Part shown: positions 24,310 through 30,536 of the stretch, piece by piece
How positions within the stretch are numbered: the first letter of the stretch is position 1
How the letters are laid out: each line of letters begins with the position of its first letter
IMG/VR virus record: IMGVR_UViG_3300030103_003096
Span: 1-36,798 of that record
DNA from: a virus
Reading direction: 5' to 3' (one strand)
Length of the DNA: 36,798 nt
Made by a program: the position numbers and the translations under genes
Notes under the pieces: model-generated
The model's input: the letters and a program-made list of their open reading frames with translations, nothing else
The model's database searches: none
Told to the model about the DNA's origin: nothing

Positions 24310-24335
24310 GAGCCTCTTCGGAGGCTCTTTTTTTT
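24310..24335 (+). terminator. Rho-independent terminator for the RusA/primase-helicase unit
   Basis: GAGCCTC-TTCG-GAGGCTC, a 7-base-pair stem closed by a stable UUCG tetraloop, followed directly by eight T's. This is a textbook intrinsic terminator on the plus strand, 176 bases after the primase-helicase stop. Confidence 0.93.
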
Positions 24336-24364: not shown

Positions 24365-24368
24365 ATTC

Positions 24369-24390
24369 AAAAAGTTATAGGGAACTTTTT
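24369..24390. repeat. Palindrome family copy c (AAAAAGTT-N6-AACTTTTT)
   Basis: An 8-base-pair perfect stem with loop ATAGGG. It lies between the plus- and minus-strand terminators. It may act as an extra terminator or a processing site. Confidence 0.75.
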
Positions 24391-24397
24391 TATTCTC

Positions 24398-24444
24398 AAA
24401 AAAAAAGACAAAAAAAAAGCCCCCAGACAAAATGTCTGAGGGCT
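24398..24444 (-). terminator. Rho-independent terminator for the minus-strand unit
   Basis: On the minus strand the sequence folds as AGCCC-T-CAGACA-TTTT-TGTCTG-G-GGGCT style arms (24418-24444) with one bulge, followed by a run of eight T's and then a second T-run. It is placed to end transcripts coming leftwards from the minus-strand genes and from the pseudoknot element. Confidence 0.88.
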
Positions 24445-24460
24445 GAGTTTGGGAGGAAAG

Positions 24461-24570
24461 TGTCTGCTAAAAAAAGTGGGGATAGGCATTAAGGATTATG
24501 TCGGAAACCTATCCCCAAGTTTTCCAATGGGCAAAGGGGAGTGAACCCTTAGCAGGCAGATGCCCATTGG
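24461..24570. ncRNA. Candidate structured RNA with a pseudoknot
   Basis: Three long complementary pairs lie in about 110 bases. TGTCTGCTAA (24461-24470) pairs with TTAGCAGGCA (24549-24558). GGGGATAGG (24478-24486) pairs perfectly with CCTATCCCC (24508-24516). CCAATGGGCA (24524-24533) pairs perfectly with TGCCCATTGG (24561-24570). The first and third cross each other, so the fold is a pseudoknot. A small stem AAGGG/CCCTT (24534-24538 with 24546-24550, 7-base loop) sits inside the third. Strand is uncertain: one T-G position in the first stem is a wobble only on the plus strand, but the minus strand has the gene upstream and a strong terminator 17 bases after the element. It encodes no protein that I can see. 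Confidence 0.75.
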
Positions 24571-24587
24571 TGTTCTATATTAACCGA

Positions 24588-24788
24588 TTAAAAAGGATAT
24601 TCCGACCAAAATTTTTCATATGTTTGAGGATGATCTAATCTTTCCTTTTCTTTTTTTTCAGTCTCGATATCTGACAACCAATTATCAAATAACTCTTGCA
24701 AATCGGAAGGCATATCTTGTTGTATTTTTACAAGCTTATCTTTGTCGCTCCACTGAGCGAGTATCTTTGTAGATATTATTGTTGACAT
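24588..24788 (-). CDS. Small acidic protein, unknown
   Basis: A 66-residue protein starting MSTIISTKILAQWSDKDKLV and ending HPQTYEKFWSEYPF. It is helical and charged, with no recognised domain. The leader AAAGAGAGTGAACAATG resembles the shared AAGGAGTGAA leader of other minus-strand genes here. It is the last gene of this unit, with the candidate structured RNA in its 3' untranslated region. Confidence 0.75.
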   Translation of the reverse strand: MSTIISTKILAQWSDKDKLVKIQQDMPSDLQELFDNWLSDIETEKKEKERLDHPQTYEKFWSEYPF

Positions 24789-24928
24789 TGTTCACTCTCT
24801 TTCTGATACATGATTGCATCCACAGGGAGACTATCGCTAGTCTCCCAAGGGATAAAATCATCTAGTAATCGGCTCCCCAAAAGCCAATTAATAAGAAGAC
24901 AAAGTCCACAAGGGCAAGACTCGCCCAT
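24776..24928 (-). CDS. Candidate small ORF overlapping two neighbours
   Basis: A 50-residue frame from ATG at 24928, or 34 residues from TTG at 24880. The part outside other genes reads LLDDFIPWETSDSLPVDAIM then YQKESEQCQQ, an acidic sequence with protein-like composition. Its stop overlaps the next gene start by 11 bases. The N-terminal part would lie inside the membrane-protein gene. The perfect hairpin at 24825-24846 falls in the middle of the frame, so the DNA may be constrained for RNA structure instead. Confidence 0.3.
   Translation of the reverse strand: MGESCPCGLCLLINWLLGSRLLDDFIPWETSDSLPVDAIMYQKESEQCQQ
24825..24846. repeat. Intergenic hairpin GGGAGACTA-TCGC-TAGTCTCCC
   Basis: A 9-base-pair perfect stem with tetraloop TCGC between two minus-strand genes and upstream of the ribosome-binding site of the downstream one. 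There is no T-run, so it is more likely a leader element or an RNA processing site than a terminator. Confidence 0.75.
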
Positions 24929-25053
24929 GTAGATAGTTGATCAAAGTCATCGATAGCTATCGAGTTAATAACACCGAGGGTTATTATCCAGAACGCTATA
25001 CCAGAAACAACCAAGACCTTATTGAGAAAACCTCTATTCCAAAATTCAAACAT
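24862..25053 (-). CDS. Small membrane protein, two hydrophobic segments
   Basis: A 63-residue protein starting MFEFWNRGFLNKVLVVSGIA. It has two hydrophobic segments, about residues 12-32 and 43-60, separated by a short acidic loop (IDDFDQLST). It would be a hairpin in the inner membrane. Its start overlaps the end of another small membrane protein by eight bases. Function unknown. Such pairs of tiny membrane proteins in phages may act in host takeover, superinfection exclusion or as an antiholin, but nothing here decides this. Confidence 0.75.
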   Translation of the reverse strand: MFEFWNRGFLNKVLVVSGIAFWIITLGVINSIAIDDFDQLSTWASLALVDFVFLLIGFWGADY

Positions 25054-25189
25054 TGGTTCCCCCCATCTCTAATGAAAATGCACTCCATATAAATATGAGG
25101 GCAAATATTCCCATAAGTATTAGAATAAATTTTAGAACATCTGCAACGCTCATGTTCATTAGATCATTTAATATTTCTCTAATAGTCAT
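25046..25189 (-). CDS. Small membrane protein, single hydrophobic helix
   Basis: A 47-residue ORF starting MTIREILNDLMNMSVADVLK, with a hydrophobic helix FILILMGIFALIFIWSAF (about residues 21-38) and a short polar tail. GGGAG lies eight bases upstream of the ATG. The start lies just after the stop of the preceding gene and the end overlaps the next start, a coupled arrangement. Function unknown. Confidence 0.7.
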   Translation of the reverse strand: MTIREILNDLMNMSVADVLKFILILMGIFALIFIWSAFSLEMGGTNV

Positions 25190-25191
25190 TA

Positions 25192-26037
25192 CTAATCTCC
25201 CAATAAAGTTGAAGTTGCTCTGCTATTGTATCGTCTCTCGATAAGAGAATAAGCAGAATGAATGTCCTTACCAACACCGACCAGATCGTCTTCCATAGTC
25301 TTCTTACGCAAGACCCACCAATCAAAATGCACCTCTGGTTCAAACTTGGTACCTCTGTGCTTAAATGCAAAGTCAACAAGAGTAGCCTTGAAAGACTCGA
25401 TACCCTCTTCGACTAGATAGTCCTTGGGTTCGCTTTGCAAGTCCATCACTAGGTATCTACGCTTACCAGACTCCACACAGTCGAGACCTTTATTTTGAAC
25501 TTTCCACTTCCAAGTATATGGTGGGCATAGTGTTTCGCCAAGGTGAGCAGTTAAAGGATAAACTGACTCAGTGTTTAAATTTGGTCTACGCTTTTTAATA
25601 GTGACATTGGTGTATGCCTTGGGAAAGTGATGTCTCATCGTATCACGGAAAGCCGTGTCGTTCTGCATCATTCGCAACTCAAGCTTATCCACTTCGGCAC
25701 ATACAATCTTGCCATCCTTGACGTTGTAGGTCTCGCCTCTGGCATCCTTACGAAACTCTCGTATGTGCTTGATAGCATCGGCTATGCCTTTGATCGCAAG
25801 CATAGTGCTATCGTCTTTAGTTGGGGCAGACTGTCGTAAGTTCATTAGGTAATCCCTTACCTCATCGTCCATACTCCTAGTTATACTGAAACCATAGAAA
25901 TGTTTAGCAGTCATCTGCTTATGCAACTCTTGCACAACCTTAGACGGCACTTGATAGATTTTTCGCATCATATCAATCTGCTCTTGATACAATGCCACCA
26001 TCTTATGAGGTGGTAGTACGTTAGAAAATATTGTCAT
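25192..26037 (-). CDS. Phage protein of unknown function (281 residues)
   Basis: A soluble protein with no motif I recognise. The first 110 residues are helical and charged (VALYQEQIDMMRKIYQVPSK). The middle contains TAFRDTMRHHFPKAYTNVTI. The last third is rich in aromatic residues and strands (PPYTWKWKVQ, HFDWWVLRKK). It has its own leader with AAAGGAGTGAAACAATG, the ribosome-binding pattern shared by the MoxR gene and two others. A 7-base-pair hairpin (GGGAGTT/AACTCCC) lies just upstream, suggesting separate control of this gene. Confidence 0.8.
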   Translation of the reverse strand: MTIFSNVLPPHKMVALYQEQIDMMRKIYQVPSKVVQELHKQMTAKHFYGFSITRSMDDEVRDYLMNLRQSAPTKDDSTMLAIKGIADAIKHIREFRKDARGETYNVKDGKIVCAEVDKLELRMMQNDTAFRDTMRHHFPKAYTNVTIKKRRPNLNTESVYPLTAHLGETLCPPYTWKWKVQNKGLDCVESGKRRYLVMDLQSEPKDYLVEEGIESFKATLVDFAFKHRGTKFEPEVHFDWWVLRKKTMEDDLVGVGKDIHSAYSLIERRYNSRATSTLLGD

Positions 26038-26070
26038 TGTTTCACTCCTTTATGACAGTTGAAATTATAG

Positions 26071-26099
26071 GGGAGTTTCAGTTTAAAGGCTTAACTCCC
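26071..26099. promoter_or_regulatory. Leader hairpin upstream of the 281-residue gene
   Basis: GGGAGTT (26071-26077) pairs with AACTCCC (26093-26099) across a 15-base loop, about 20 bases before the AAAGGAGTG ribosome-binding site on the minus strand. The loop contains TTTAAA. It may be an attenuator, a stabilising 5' hairpin or the remains of a terminator. Confidence 0.5.
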
Positions 26100-26205
26100 A
26101 CACCGAAAAGAGCCTTGCAATTAGAGGTTTGAGCCTTGTTTAAAGAGTGGTAAACCATGATCGCACCGACCAAAATGCACTCTGATACCCAAGGGTACCT
26201 CGATA

Positions 26206-26242
26206 GGGATTGAAAAAAGTTACATATAACTTTTCTAATCCC
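26206..26242. repeat. Palindrome family copy d, extended stem
   Basis: AAAAGTTA-CATA-TAACTTTT (26215-26234) with outer arms GGGATT and AATCCC separated by a small internal loop. It lies eight bases after the stop of the 145-residue minus-strand gene, so it may terminate or process that transcript. Leftwards of it there is about 130 bases with no gene I can support. Confidence 0.78.
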
Positions 26243-26249
26243 CATCCAG

Positions 26250-26687
26250 TTACTCTTGTTTTTTCCAATAACCATACACTGCTCGATTAACATTGCCACT
26301 CGGATCGTATCGTCTCGGATCGTGGTAATGGTTAATAACTCCATCGATAACAGCAACAAGATCGCCAGATACTTTTACAATAAGGTTACCCTCTGGCAGT
26401 TCTTCTTTACGCAGATGAACCTCTACTCCAGAGCCTATACGCATTGTCGAATGCCAATCGAAACCAATACTGCAAATGTAATCTTTGACCTTTTGGTATT
26501 GAACTCGTCTCGACTTCGATGCGTCATGGATCAATTTCATTTGCTCATGGGCATCGATGTAGGAAATGTCAGAGGCGATAGCTATCGCCACTGAACCAAA
26601 ATATAGTTTAGGTTTTCTAGCATTTGGATGCTTGGGTAGGAATGGCTGATAGAACCATTCCCCCCCATCGTTGTGCTTGTACTCCAT
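26250..26687 (-). CDS. Phage protein of unknown function
   Basis: A 145-residue protein starting MEYKHNDGGEWFYQPFLPKH. ATG at 26687 overlaps the upstream stop as TGATG, which favours it over GTG at 26690. The C-terminal half contains LIVKVSGDLVAVIDGVINHY and YDPSGNVNRAVYGYW, a strand-rich pattern I recall from phage hypothetical proteins. No catalytic motif is evident. It is coupled to the VWA protein, so it may be a third component of the MoxR-VWA set. This is context inference. Confidence 0.8.
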   Translation of the reverse strand: MEYKHNDGGEWFYQPFLPKHPNARKPKLYFGSVAIAIASDISYIDAHEQMKLIHDASKSRRVQYQKVKDYICSIGFDWHSTMRIGSGVEVHLRKEELPEGNLIVKVSGDLVAVIDGVINHYHDPRRYDPSGNVNRAVYGYWKKQE

Positions 26688-27949
26688 CACTGATCCACCC
26701 TAATAGTCTGACCGAATGGTGCCTCGCTCTTGGTAGGCGATACGTTCACCCAGAGGACAGGATAATCTGGGGCAACTTTTGGATAGTCAAATATGCCCAT
26801 GTCAGTAAAGATTATAAGACGATCAACCTCGATGCCTGTCTCCTCGATGAAGTCAAAAACAGGCTGAACACAGGTACCACCTCTCCCCTTGATGTTGATC
26901 TTCTCGATCTCTTCGCCTTGATCAAAGAACTGCACCTTATCTTTGTTGACGCTCGCATCGAATGGAATGACAGTGACACTCTCTGGCTTGAGGTCTTCGC
27001 AAAGATAGTTCAACTCGGTAAAGCCTCGGACAAGTTCCTTGTCGTGAACTGATCCAGACTGATCCTGTGCGACTACAATATGACCAACACCCTTGCGATC
27101 AACTACAGGATCAAGAACTCCTGTTGTCCTGTGCCTAATGATGTTGATCTTTTTCTCAGTCCAACCTTGACGATTATCGCCACCCTTAATGAACTGATCA
27201 AACTGATCGTGCCATGAAACTTTAGGCTCAAGTAATTGGTCAATTATCCCATGTAGTTCGCTTGGAATATCGCCCCTTGATCTATGCTGAGTCGCATTGA
27301 GCAACTTCTGATCTGCATCAGCCTCTGCCAACTTGTACTCACTCTCGGACAAAGCAGTGCCATCGGCTTTCTTTGGCTCGATAACCTCGCCCCAACCTTG
27401 AGGCTGAGGAGCAGAACCACCACCAGACTCGCTAGGCTGATTGCCTTGATCCTGTGGGTTGCCTTGACCATCAGAGGGAGTCGACTGTCCATCGTCTCCC
27501 TCATCGCCCTTGCCTTTGGTGGGTGGCTCTGGTGGCTCGGACATATCTTTTCTGATCTTGTTGTAGATAGTCTCGGCAGTGAACGTGCTATACTCATCCT
27601 TGAATAATGCACCCTCTGGCAAAGTAAAATCACCTCTTTTAAGAATGTGATTGATAGCATAATCGCAAGCAATATTCCAAAGCTGATGCACTCGCCCTCT
27701 CATACGCAATGCGTGTTTGAAAAGGATATGCAGAACTTCGTGAGCAAATACTCCAACAACTTCCTGTTCGGTGATGCTATCAACAAAGGCTCTGTTCCAG
27801 AAAATACTGGAACCATCGGTTGCCATTGTCTGCACAGTGTTATCCTCTCGGACAACACTGCTCAATAATGTAGACCCATAGAATGGGTGCTTTAAGATCA
27901 AATAGGTTTTAGCCTTAGCGATCTTTTTATCTGCATCTAGTGTGATCAT
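26687..27949 (-). CDS. VWA-domain protein with N-terminal HExxH metallopeptidase-like part
   Basis: A 420-residue protein starting MITLDADKKIAKAKTYLILK. ATG at 27949 overlaps the MoxR stop as ATGA. The N-terminal part has VFAHEVLHILFKHALRM with HEVLH at residues 70-74, the zinc-binding pattern of the DUF2201 N-terminal metallopeptidase-like domain. A Pro/Gly/Gln/Ser-rich linker follows (about residues 135-190). The C-terminal VWA-like domain has the metal-binding motif DQSGS (296-300) and IIFTDMG further on. This arrangement pairs with MoxR ATPases, which are thought to act as chaperones that remodel or load metal into partner proteins. The target in this phage is unknown. Confidence 0.9.
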   Translation of the reverse strand: MITLDADKKIAKAKTYLILKHPFYGSTLLSSVVREDNTVQTMATDGSSIFWNRAFVDSITEQEVVGVFAHEVLHILFKHALRMRGRVHQLWNIACDYAINHILKRGDFTLPEGALFKDEYSTFTAETIYNKIRKDMSEPPEPPTKGKGDEGDDGQSTPSDGQGNPQDQGNQPSESGGGSAPQPQGWGEVIEPKKADGTALSESEYKLAEADADQKLLNATQHRSRGDIPSELHGIIDQLLEPKVSWHDQFDQFIKGGDNRQGWTEKKINIIRHRTTGVLDPVVDRKGVGHIVVAQDQSGSVHDKELVRGFTELNYLCEDLKPESVTVIPFDASVNKDKVQFFDQGEEIEKINIKGRGGTCVQPVFDFIEETGIEVDRLIIFTDMGIFDYPKVAPDYPVLWVNVSPTKSEAPFGQTIRVDQ

Positions 27950-29016
27950 ACCATTAACTCCCTTCCTGTTGATTTTAACCAAGCTTTAACTTCTGGATGC
28001 TTGGCAAAAGAATTGTCTCTCTTGACTGCATCCTTGATGCACACAACTGCCATCTCTTGAGATGTAAGCCTTGAAACATAGGCGATAATATTGCCCATGT
28101 TTGCATTACTTGCCTTCTGAGATAAGGCACCACAAAGAGCATACTGAACGTCTGGTCTATCTGGTATCCTTGCACTCTCTGGGTTAGCGATAAGCTTATC
28201 CAAGTTTAAGAACTCTGGAACGTCCTTGATGATCTTAAGGAAACCGATAAAATCTGCACAGGCTGACTCACCAACTGTTCCTGTTATATTCTGCTGAATA
28301 ACAGATGCACCCAGACCCTTTAGCTTTAGGATATTGCTCACCCTTTCCCATGATCTAGGATTAGGAGAAACATCCTCAAGAGGATCGTTGTTGCAGTAAA
28401 ACTCTGGTCTCGCTCTGAGGTAGGAAACAACCTTGAAATCCCACCCAGATTCTACAGCATAGGAACAAGTATCTTCTAGGTCTGCATCAGCCTCAAGAAA
28501 CACTAAGCAGTCCTTAAAATGTGTAGGCAGTCTCTTTGCACCAGCCTTATCTTTCACCCTGTTTCCAGCTAATGCGATGAACCAACCTTGGGGCAATTTG
28601 AACTCACCAATTCCGAGTCCGTTGATCAACTGCCTACCAACATTAAGAACTTGCATCTCAGCCTCTGCAACCTCGTCAAGAAAAAGAACTCCATATTTCT
28701 TGCCATTGTTGTATGCATTCCAGACCTTAACGTGCCAATCTGGACGTGCTAGGACAACCTCTGTTCCCTCTTTATTTGGTATTCTGCAACCAGATAAAAT
28801 TGTTGGTTCATGGTCTGACAATCGATAAGGAACACATCCCCAGTCATCGCCTAACACCTTGATAGCATCGTTAACACAACAAGTTTTTCCAATGCCATAT
28901 GTACCAACAACGTATGGGTTAAGGATGGACGAGTCCGTTGCCTTTCCAGACTGTTGAACTTCTAGGTTATGTCTCATAATTGAAACGATTGAGTCTCTAA
29001 TATCTGTAAATCTCAT
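27946..29016 (-). CDS. MoxR-like AAA+ ATPase
   Basis: A 356-residue protein with Walker A GTYGIGKT (residues 38-45) and Walker B VLFLDEV (110-116). A sensor-1 Asn lies in FIALAGNRV, and the lid region follows with SWERVSNILKLKGLG. This matches the MoxR branch of AAA+ proteins, which almost always work with a VWA partner, here the next gene. It would form a hexamer in the cytoplasm and use ATP to remodel a client. The leader has TATAAGGAGTGAAAACATG and the extended palindrome copy e about 80 bases upstream. Confidence 0.9.
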   Translation of the reverse strand: MRFTDIRDSIVSIMRHNLEVQQSGKATDSSILNPYVVGTYGIGKTCCVNDAIKVLGDDWGCVPYRLSDHEPTILSGCRIPNKEGTEVVLARPDWHVKVWNAYNNGKKYGVLFLDEVAEAEMQVLNVGRQLINGLGIGEFKLPQGWFIALAGNRVKDKAGAKRLPTHFKDCLVFLEADADLEDTCSYAVESGWDFKVVSYLRARPEFYCNNDPLEDVSPNPRSWERVSNILKLKGLGASVIQQNITGTVGESACADFIGFLKIIKDVPEFLNLDKLIANPESARIPDRPDVQYALCGALSQKASNANMGNIIAYVSRLTSQEMAVVCIKDAVKRDNSFAKHPEVKAWLKSTGRELMV

Positions 29017-29070
29017 GTTTTCACTCCTTATAATTAATTGAGATTAATTGATGCTGATTGCATCTCTCAA

Positions 29071-29106
29071 GGCAGTAAAAAAAGTTAGGTATAACTTTTT
29101 ACTGCC
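29071..29106. repeat. Palindrome family copy e, 15-base-pair extended stem
   Basis: GGCAGTAAAA...GTTA (29071-29087), loop GGTA, TAACTTTTTACTGCC (29092-29106). The stem is perfect apart from two extra A's on the left. It lies between the 232-residue gene and the MoxR gene on the minus strand, directly after the former's stop. It is the strongest member of the family and a plausible terminator or RNase III site. Confidence 0.85.
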
Positions 29107-29119
29107 CTGTAAGACATAA

Positions 29120-29818
29120 TCAGAATGGGTTGTTATCTAGGTCTGCTTGATGGTCTGCATTTGCAGAGGCAACCAACTGAGCAGAGCAATCGTTGACCTC
29201 TTCGTTGATCTTCTGCTCTTCTTTTTTGGTCTTCTCTGCCTTGGCTCCCTTAGTGTTCATCTCTGCCTTGGCTGTCTTGGTTGCCTCAAATACCTCTTCG
29301 AATTTCTCAAGGTCTCTAGCATCAAGACCACCAACCCAACCACCTTCATTTTTGGATGGTCTGCCTAGGATTTTCTCTACAAGCTTTTCTACATCTGACT
29401 GATCCTGTCGCTTTGGATCAAAATGCTTGATCAACTTAGCCTCAGAGGTAACACCCAGAGCATCAAATTTGTTCTTGATCTCTTGCACTAAGGTTGCACC
29501 AGATAGGTTGTGCATCTTCTTGAGAGTGCCATCCTTGTGAAAGCTTTCGAAAACCCATTGAGTTTTTTCTACTACCTTTTTTAACTTTGAGGGGGAAAGC
29601 TTTGCCTCTTCTGAGCAGTCGTTACGAAATGCCTTAACGTCTTTAGTTGAGATTGTGGGTGCCTTGTACTTGGCAAAGGCTGAGACAGTGACGCAGTAAA
29701 TGTCGATGTTGCCTTGATTGATAGCCTCGGCATTAGCCTTGTTATGCTTTCGCATTACCTCAATGTTTGAGGCTGTTTCTCTGATTGTAGTCGCTTGATC
29801 TTTAGTTAATATTGTCAT
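29120..29818 (-). CDS. Phage protein of unknown function with SSB-like tail
   Basis: A 232-residue protein starting MTILTKDQATTIRETASNIE. ATG at 29818 lies seven bases after AGGAG, so it is preferred over the in-frame GTG at 29827. It is largely helical and Lys/Glu-rich, with a coiled-coil-like segment near residues 180-215 (AKTEMNTKGAK-type repeats of Ala, Lys, Glu). The C-terminus, ADHQADLDNNPF, resembles the acidic Pro-Phe tip of SSB. No domain recognised. It may be a partner of the MoxR-VWA pair or a DNA-metabolism protein. Confidence 0.82.
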   Translation of the reverse strand: MTILTKDQATTIRETASNIEVMRKHNKANAEAINQGNIDIYCVTVSAFAKYKAPTISTKDVKAFRNDCSEEAKLSPSKLKKVVEKTQWVFESFHKDGTLKKMHNLSGATLVQEIKNKFDALGVTSEAKLIKHFDPKRQDQSDVEKLVEKILGRPSKNEGGWVGGLDARDLEKFEEVFEATKTAKAEMNTKGAKAEKTKKEEQKINEEVNDCSAQLVASANADHQADLDNNPF

Positions 29819-29850
29819 GGTTTTCACTCCTATTTGACGTTGATTTTTGC

Positions 29851-29888
29851 CCTGTAATTACAGGCGAGTCGAGCCTCAACTGAGGCTC
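29851..29888. promoter_or_regulatory. Leader with two palindromes
   Basis: CCTGTAATTACAGG (29851-29864), a perfect 14-base palindrome, and GAGCCTC-AACT-GAGGCTC (29871-29888), a 7-base-pair stem whose arm is the same sequence as in the terminator at 24310. Both lie upstream of the AGGAGTGAAAACC ribosome-binding site on the minus strand. No T-run follows the second hairpin. Confidence 0.65.
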
Positions 29889-29901
29889 TCATCGTTTGTA
29901 A

Positions 29902-30207
29902 TTAATTGTATTTCAACCAATCTGGTTCGTTGCCTACAATCTCATATGAAACCTTGAGCATATACACTGCCTTTCGTATCAACTCCTTGGCTCCCTCTGG
30001 TTTGTCGAAACCATACTCATGGGCAAAGTCGATGCTAGAAGACTGCATCCAGTTTGCTATTTGATACTTGTTAAATAGCTGTGCTAGTTGCTTGCCTTTC
30101 ATCGCAGACCCAAGCTTAACTCCATTTCGATTAATCCAAACTCTGCCCTTGTCGGCAGATAAAATTACAGTGTCATCCTCTGACGTTCTAAAAAATTCGG
30201 TACCCAT
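29902..30207 (-). CDS. Phage protein of unknown function
   Basis: A 101-residue protein starting MGTEFFRTSEDDTVILSADK. The N-terminal half is strand-rich (DTVILSADKGRVWINRNGVK), the second half helical (MKGKQLAQLFNKYQIANWMQ), ending NEPDWLKYN. No recognised family. It is the first gene transcribed leftwards from the large control region. The leader has AAAAAGGAGTGAACAATG and a 12-base-pair hairpin immediately upstream. Confidence 0.8.
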   Translation of the reverse strand: MGTEFFRTSEDDTVILSADKGRVWINRNGVKLGSAMKGKQLAQLFNKYQIANWMQSSSIDFAHEYGFDKPEGAKELIRKAVYMLKVSYEIVGNEPDWLKYN

Positions 30208-30231
30208 TGTTCACTCCTTTTTAATTCTAAA

Positions 30232-30259
30232 AGAGATGCAGAACTATTTCTGCACCTCT
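30232..30259 (-). promoter_or_regulatory. Leader hairpin / attenuator-like element
   Basis: On the minus strand AGAGGTGCAGAA-ATAG-TTCTGCATCTCT forms a 12-base-pair stem with one G-T wobble, followed by TTTT and then the ribosome-binding site AAAGGAGTG. This resembles a short intrinsic terminator placed just before a gene, which would fit attenuation or simply leader stability. Confidence 0.7.
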
Positions 30260-30536
30260 CGTAAAACTAGTCTTGTCGTTGTGGCATCCCTCTAATCACA
30301 TTGTGGCTTTTGTGTTTGATAGGTGGGGAAGTATTTCATCTAGTTGCCTGTTCGTGCCGATGTATCAAATCATTACCCTTATCTCTTGGACGCTAAGGTC
30401 TGGGGTCATGGGGTCACAGGTTTTCTAGACACCTTTTTTTGCTTGCGATATCTGGGTCGTATATGTCTCCTTTCGAATCAGTCGGCATCAGTGCCGAGGC
30501 GGTCGTCTCCCTCTAAAGTAGGGATTTTTTCAACCA

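Follow-up and report, generated by a model that had tools for sequence, protein, structure and literature searches.

A structured RNA at the end of a phage operon with a loop complementary to the operon's extended Shine-Dalgarno sequences

The locus and the architecture of the RNA

The window analyzed here, the whole stretch of 36,798 nucleotides, comes from an uncultured virus whose record is 41,868 bases long. Its minus strand carries an operon that encodes small unknown proteins, a MoxR-like ATPase (phrog_1297), and a DUF2201 metallopeptidase/VWA protein (phrog_1314). The DUF2201 gene lies beside that of the ATPase in the minus-strand interval 26687-29016, and its product is labeled "HNH endonuclease" in PHROGs; Pfam gives the metallopeptidase/VWA pair, and the PHROGs label is probably wrong. 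The run of genes ends with one encoding 66 aa; a structured RNA starts no more than about 20 nt beyond its stop codon and extends through a strong intrinsic terminator (Table 1). A −10-like hexamer near the first stem, P1, recurs in seven different upstream contexts, a weak promoter signal.

The named phages closest by terminase (52-57% identity) are seawater phage 023Pt_psg01, Phage DSL-LC04, and Pelagibacter phages HTVC027P and HTVC023P. The phages carrying the RNA are uncultured and probably marine. Separately, the palindrome AAAGTT-ATATAG-AACTTT and variants of it are found between genes, in the window at about 24367-24390 and 29060-29085, with some copies inside genes. It is also present in relatives G002, G003, G011, and G012, and possible roles are an operator, a terminator, or an RNase site. 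The idea that the palindrome AAAGTTATATAGAACTTT marks a promoter common to the RNA and other genes was considered and found no support, the RNA having no AAAGTTATATAGAACTTT.

Table 1. Positions in the window of the RNA, its parts, the operon, and the complementary Shine-Dalgarno (SD) sequences
Feature	Position	Strand	Remarks
Structured RNA, whole	24411..24577	-	from just past the 66-aa gene stop through the terminator; P1 begins at 24570
Possible −10 element TAATAT	24576..24583	-	just upstream of P1; weak support
P1 5′ arm	24561..24570	-	10 bp with 24524..24533
P1 3′ arm	24524..24533	-	10 perfect pairs; 97.8% of cells paired; three pairs with compensatory changes
P2 5′ arm	24549..24558	-	10 positions with 24461..24470
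P2 3′ arm	24461..24470	-	largely invariant core; one doubly changed pair
Hairpin AAGGG-UUCACUC-CCCUU inside P1	24534..24550	-	24534-24538 with 24546-24550; 5 pairs, 7-nt loop
Pairing loop 5′-UUCACUCC-3′	24538..24545	-	exact complement of GGAGUGAA
P4 5′ arm	24508..24516	-	9 perfect pairs with 24478..24486
P4 3′ arm	24478..24486	-	9 bp
Intrinsic terminator	24411..24444	-	12-pair stem (24444-24418), then U run
Target operon	24588..30207	-	
Target SD GAGUGAA	24791..24797	-	before 66-aa gene 24588-24788
Target SD GGAGUGAA	26041..26048	-	before gene 25192-26037
Target SD GGAGUGAA	29020..29027	-	before MoxR-like ATPase gene 27946-29016
Target SD GGAGUGAA	29823..29830	-	before gene 29120-29818
Target SD GGAGUGAA	30210..30217	-	before gene 29902-30207

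A first-pass annotation had described, between a minus-strand gene and a terminator, a compact structured RNA with three near-perfect stems of 9 to 10 pairs and a 5-pair hairpin, two of the long stems crossing. All of these stems are present, and its coordinates were right. P2 does cross P1, with its 5′ arm inside P1 and its 3′ arm beyond P4. One P2 position in the window that would be U.G on the plus strand reads as a mismatched A.C on the strand of the RNA, the minus strand. Compared with shuffled sequences, the minus strand folded with a z score of −4.1 (0/200 shuffles) and the plus strand with one of −2.4. P1 and P4 contain G.U pairs when the element is read as the minus strand; on the plus strand these become A.C.

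The same annotation had judged such a density of stems very unlikely to arise by chance, a view that did not hold up: with a generic descriptor for crossing stems plus a hairpin, chance arrangements in 20 kb scored 56 versus 57 for the element. Because this layout search yields near-equal chance matches, the structure of a single sequence is unconvincing by itself. A layout of crossing stems plus a hairpin is by itself not rare, and it is conservation that carries the case for the element.

Conservation of the RNA and its relation to known families

We looked for homologues by protein searches with the neighboring primase/helicase and by DNA-pattern scans of IMG/VR. Nine distinct homologous RNA sequences were found on 13 contigs, all of them at the 3′ end of an operon encoding the MoxR-like ATPase and the DUF2201/VWA protein. 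Identity of the ATPase to that of the window ranged from 44 to 100% across the RNA-bearing contigs, and the gene immediately upstream of the RNA varied from contig to contig while the RNA was kept. Another pattern-based scan of viral contigs brought no additional homologue, and a DNA similarity search of named phages returned short matches only, mostly across the plus-strand terminator.

Across the nine sequences, 94.6% of the cells in P1, P2, and the hairpin were paired, versus 35 to 44% in slid versions. Four pairs, with 7 cells, had changed on both sides, three in P1 and one in P2, and the covariation score exceeded that of 500/500 shuffles and of every slid version. Homologues with kept stems and compensatory changes, which the first-pass annotation had named as potential support, thus exist, and the element is a real minus-strand structured RNA. 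P4 and the weaker crossing stem P2 also recur in the nine sequences, P2 with A.C mismatches or several mismatched cells in some members. By these comparisons the predicted P1 helix is well supported. Most of the P2 core is invariant, one P2 pair is changed on both sides, and several cells are mismatched, so we regard the pseudoknot made by P2 as plausible but less certain than P1.

Like the first-pass annotation, which could name no known family, an Rfam search gave no match at the gathering score in the window or at four homologous loci. At relaxed E-values nothing credible appeared; several of the subthreshold matches rest on the terminator hairpin, and C4 was absent from the 32 that involve the element. 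ARAGORN reported no tRNA or tmRNA, and there was no Rfam tRNA match. A known riboswitch or other Rfam RNA was rejected for want of a gathering-score match. Among the roles floated earlier, a tRNA mimic, a riboswitch, and a regulator of the convergent transcript found no support, and the suggestion of a 3′UTR-derived RNA has proved the apt one: the element is best described as a 3′UTR-type regulatory RNA at the end of an operon.

Complementarity between the loop and the ribosome-binding sites of the operon

The most conserved part of the RNA is the loop UUCACUCC. It had been likened to the loop of a T-arm, and its exact complementarity to the SD sequences of the operon, which explains it, had been missed. 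GGAGUGAA is an extended SD sequence in the operon upstream of the RNA, and in that operon, which runs into the RNA, AAGGAGUGAAAAAUG precedes successive genes. In six nonredundant contigs, GGAGTGA made up 33/46 GGAG-type SDs in the operon versus 1/87 at other genes (Fisher P = 1.6e-19), counts that rest on gene calls from an ad hoc caller and on related contigs, so that P values overstate independence and the contrast within genomes between operon and other genes is the safer guide. On contig G003, GAGTGA stood before all eight operon genes (8/8), seven times as GGAGTGA. When every 7-mer of the RNA was scanned against windows around ribosome-binding sites (RBSs), the top complement of the operon RBSs sat in the loop in 6/6 contigs, and the best loop 7-mer had 0 to 1 matches among non-operon RBSs. 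Genome-wide there were 50 GGAGTGA sites, 34 of which were RBSs and 6 the complement of the RNA itself.

The motif was present in 40/46 genes with a free leader versus 4/22 genes that run into or directly adjoin the gene before them, for which coupling is presumed. The free-leader genes lie 41 to >1000 nt past the previous stop, so the TGA within the motif is not a stop codon there, and a simple stop-codon explanation is excluded. This bears on whether the operon might favor GGAGTGAA for ordinary reasons, such as an SD preference of the host or overlapping TGA stops, with the RNA being unrelated. GGAG followed by A-rich sequence is indeed common in related phages, but the solitary GGAGTGA among the other GGAG genes of the same genomes, the distance of the free genes from any previous stop, and the fact that in each contig the best-matching RNA 7-mer falls in the loop make coincidence extremely improbable.

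The predicted duplex between loop and RBS averaged −13.1 kcal/mol, versus −9.8 kcal/mol for the same RBSs with the standard 16S anti-SD. A variant loop, GGG-UCUCACU-CCC (L134/L138), has an extra base and a one-base shift and retains UCACUCC. The match between loop and SD is essentially invariant across contigs and hence comes without loop-SD covariation. Taken as sequences, the two argue strongly for pairing.

We also considered whether GGAGUGAA might be read by a phage protein, either a translational repressor or a RegB-type nuclease, the plus-strand hairpin then serving as a GGAGUGAA decoy. The plus-strand loop, GAGUGAA, is identical to the RBS motif, as such a decoy would be. Against this, the terminator of the RNA is on the minus strand, a plus-strand terminator (24310-24327) stands ahead of the element, the minus strand folds better, and the wobble pairs of P1 and P4 are lost on the plus strand. 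A protein reader with a plus-strand decoy is therefore very unlikely.

A proposed role in translational control

Most probably, this phage-encoded RNA acts by base pairing: it masks the SDs of the operon it belongs to and jointly lowers their translation. Transcribed from the minus strand, it would come from the 3′-terminal part of the operon mRNA and perhaps in addition from a start of its own just ahead of P1. P1, P4, and the crossing P2 would form a compact scaffold displaying the 7- to 8-nt loop UUCACUCC, and the loop would pair with GGAGUGAA, the SD mark of almost every gene in the operon that is initiated independently. Pairing would hide the SD and block 30S loading; as the RNA accumulated, the whole operon would be turned down together, in a dose-dependent shut-off or feedback, and overlapping downstream genes would follow by translational coupling. 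The RNA would thus probably be a dedicated translation switch for the neighboring operon. Its expression, its pairing in the cell, and its repressive effect we infer from sequence.

Pairing of this kind has precedents. The c4 antisense RNA of phages P1 and P7 pairs around an RBS of the phage's own mRNA, the described target being ant, and blocks translation; its function depends on secondary structure, and the complementary segments are likely to be in loops (PMC12197685). The RNA described here is likewise a phage RNA complementary to RBSs of its own transcription unit, a likeness of action and not of homology. Unlike c4, it has one loop matching an extended SD common to four to eight RBSs of a single operon; it lies at the 3′ end of the operon, folds differently, with a crossing stem, and gave no Rfam C4 match. 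The bacterial alpha-r14 or "cuckoo" sRNAs, such as NfeR1, have three hairpins with CCUCCUCCC directed at the SDs of scattered genes; this anti-SD motif is ultraconserved, unpaired in the hairpins, and occludes RBSs, while the stems are more variable (PMC10746234). The phage RNA shares a conserved unpaired anti-SD hairpin motif and stems that vary more than the motif, but it has a single hairpin, with UUCACUCC and without CCUCCUCCC, and its targets carry a noncanonical, operon-specific SD.

In Staphylococcus aureus, C-rich loops of RNAIII pair with unpaired SDs of several mRNAs and block ribosome binding (PMC2837412). There too a hairpin loop is complementary to several SDs, but the motif is C-rich, the RNA is long and bacterial, and an operon-specific SD code is lacking. 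The sibling sRNAs NmsR of Neisseria use conserved anti-SD segments to silence several functionally linked mRNAs (PMC5362039); these are bacterial, differ in structure and motif, and have targets in several loci. With its conserved, predictedly unpaired segment complementary to the target SDs, the RNA of the window fits the anti-SD base-pairing class by sequence. It would act like c4, alpha-r14, and RNAIII and belongs to none of them. The difference is that its target SDs have in common a noncanonical extension, limited to a single operon and fitting the RNA. In the open-access literature searched, we found no description of the RNA or of this arrangement; one elsewhere is possible.

The same pairing could have a positive effect, with the RNA shielding, stabilizing, or circularizing operon mRNAs, for example, by guarding GGAG sites against a nuclease, or freeing SDs from leader structure. 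Four of the five target leaders are strongly structured, with strong hairpins just upstream of the SD in the minus-strand leaders at 29017-29119, 29819-29901, 30208-30300, and 24789-24861 (z of −3.2 to −5.1), and the place of the RNA, last on the operon mRNA, would suit circularization. Against this, the SD is predicted to be mostly unpaired in several of the leaders and would need no opening, and the pairing covers the SD core GGAG, an arrangement that blocks initiation in alpha-r14/NfeR1, RNAIII, and NmsR. The hairpins may themselves be stabilizers or processing sites that cut the operon mRNA into single-gene pieces. We consider a positive role unlikely and prefer repression as the direction of the effect because NfeR1, RNAIII, NmsR, and the phage c4 RNA repress by such pairing.

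It is rather likely that the virus has given one operon a translational address of its own, a noncanonical GGAGUGAA on almost all of the genes initiated independently, served by one structured reader RNA at the end of the operon that switches the whole set at once. Address and reader would constitute a self-contained RNA feedback circuit or timer that has persisted in phages sharing only about 45% identity in their operon proteins. The described SD-hiding RNAs compared above act either on canonical SDs of scattered genes or on single genes. In this virus, regulator and address appear to have been coselected for one operon, which makes a directly testable case of operon-wide translational control by one RNA. 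The combination of an operon-restricted SD extension with an RNA loop complementing it provides a search recipe, and the two would supply synthetic biology with a natural orthogonal SD/anti-SD pair. The proposal would also give a role to some of the extensive noncoding sequence of environmental phages that has no assigned function.

We examined relatives without a detected RNA as well. Across 136 such loci with related operons, which have the same ATPase/VWA genes, GGAGTGA made up 53/1466 GGAG SDs (3.6%). In the first 50 kb of each of 023Pt_psg01 and HTVC027P, there was no match to the RNA model and no GGAGTGA SD. L077, L078, and L096 have AGGAGAAAC repeated before several genes of the same operon type, the SD extension in the L077 operon being GGAGAAAC; no hairpin complementary to the SD extension was found in the sequence searched, and a weak model match in L077 (E = 0.029) was rejected as a divergent RNA, being a terminator-like hairpin without the loop. 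In a neighboring phage group, L060, L244, and their relatives carry GGAGTGAG at a few operon genes. The sequence searched held no hairpin matching GGAGTGAG in L060/L244, and this group may possess an independent system or have lost one.
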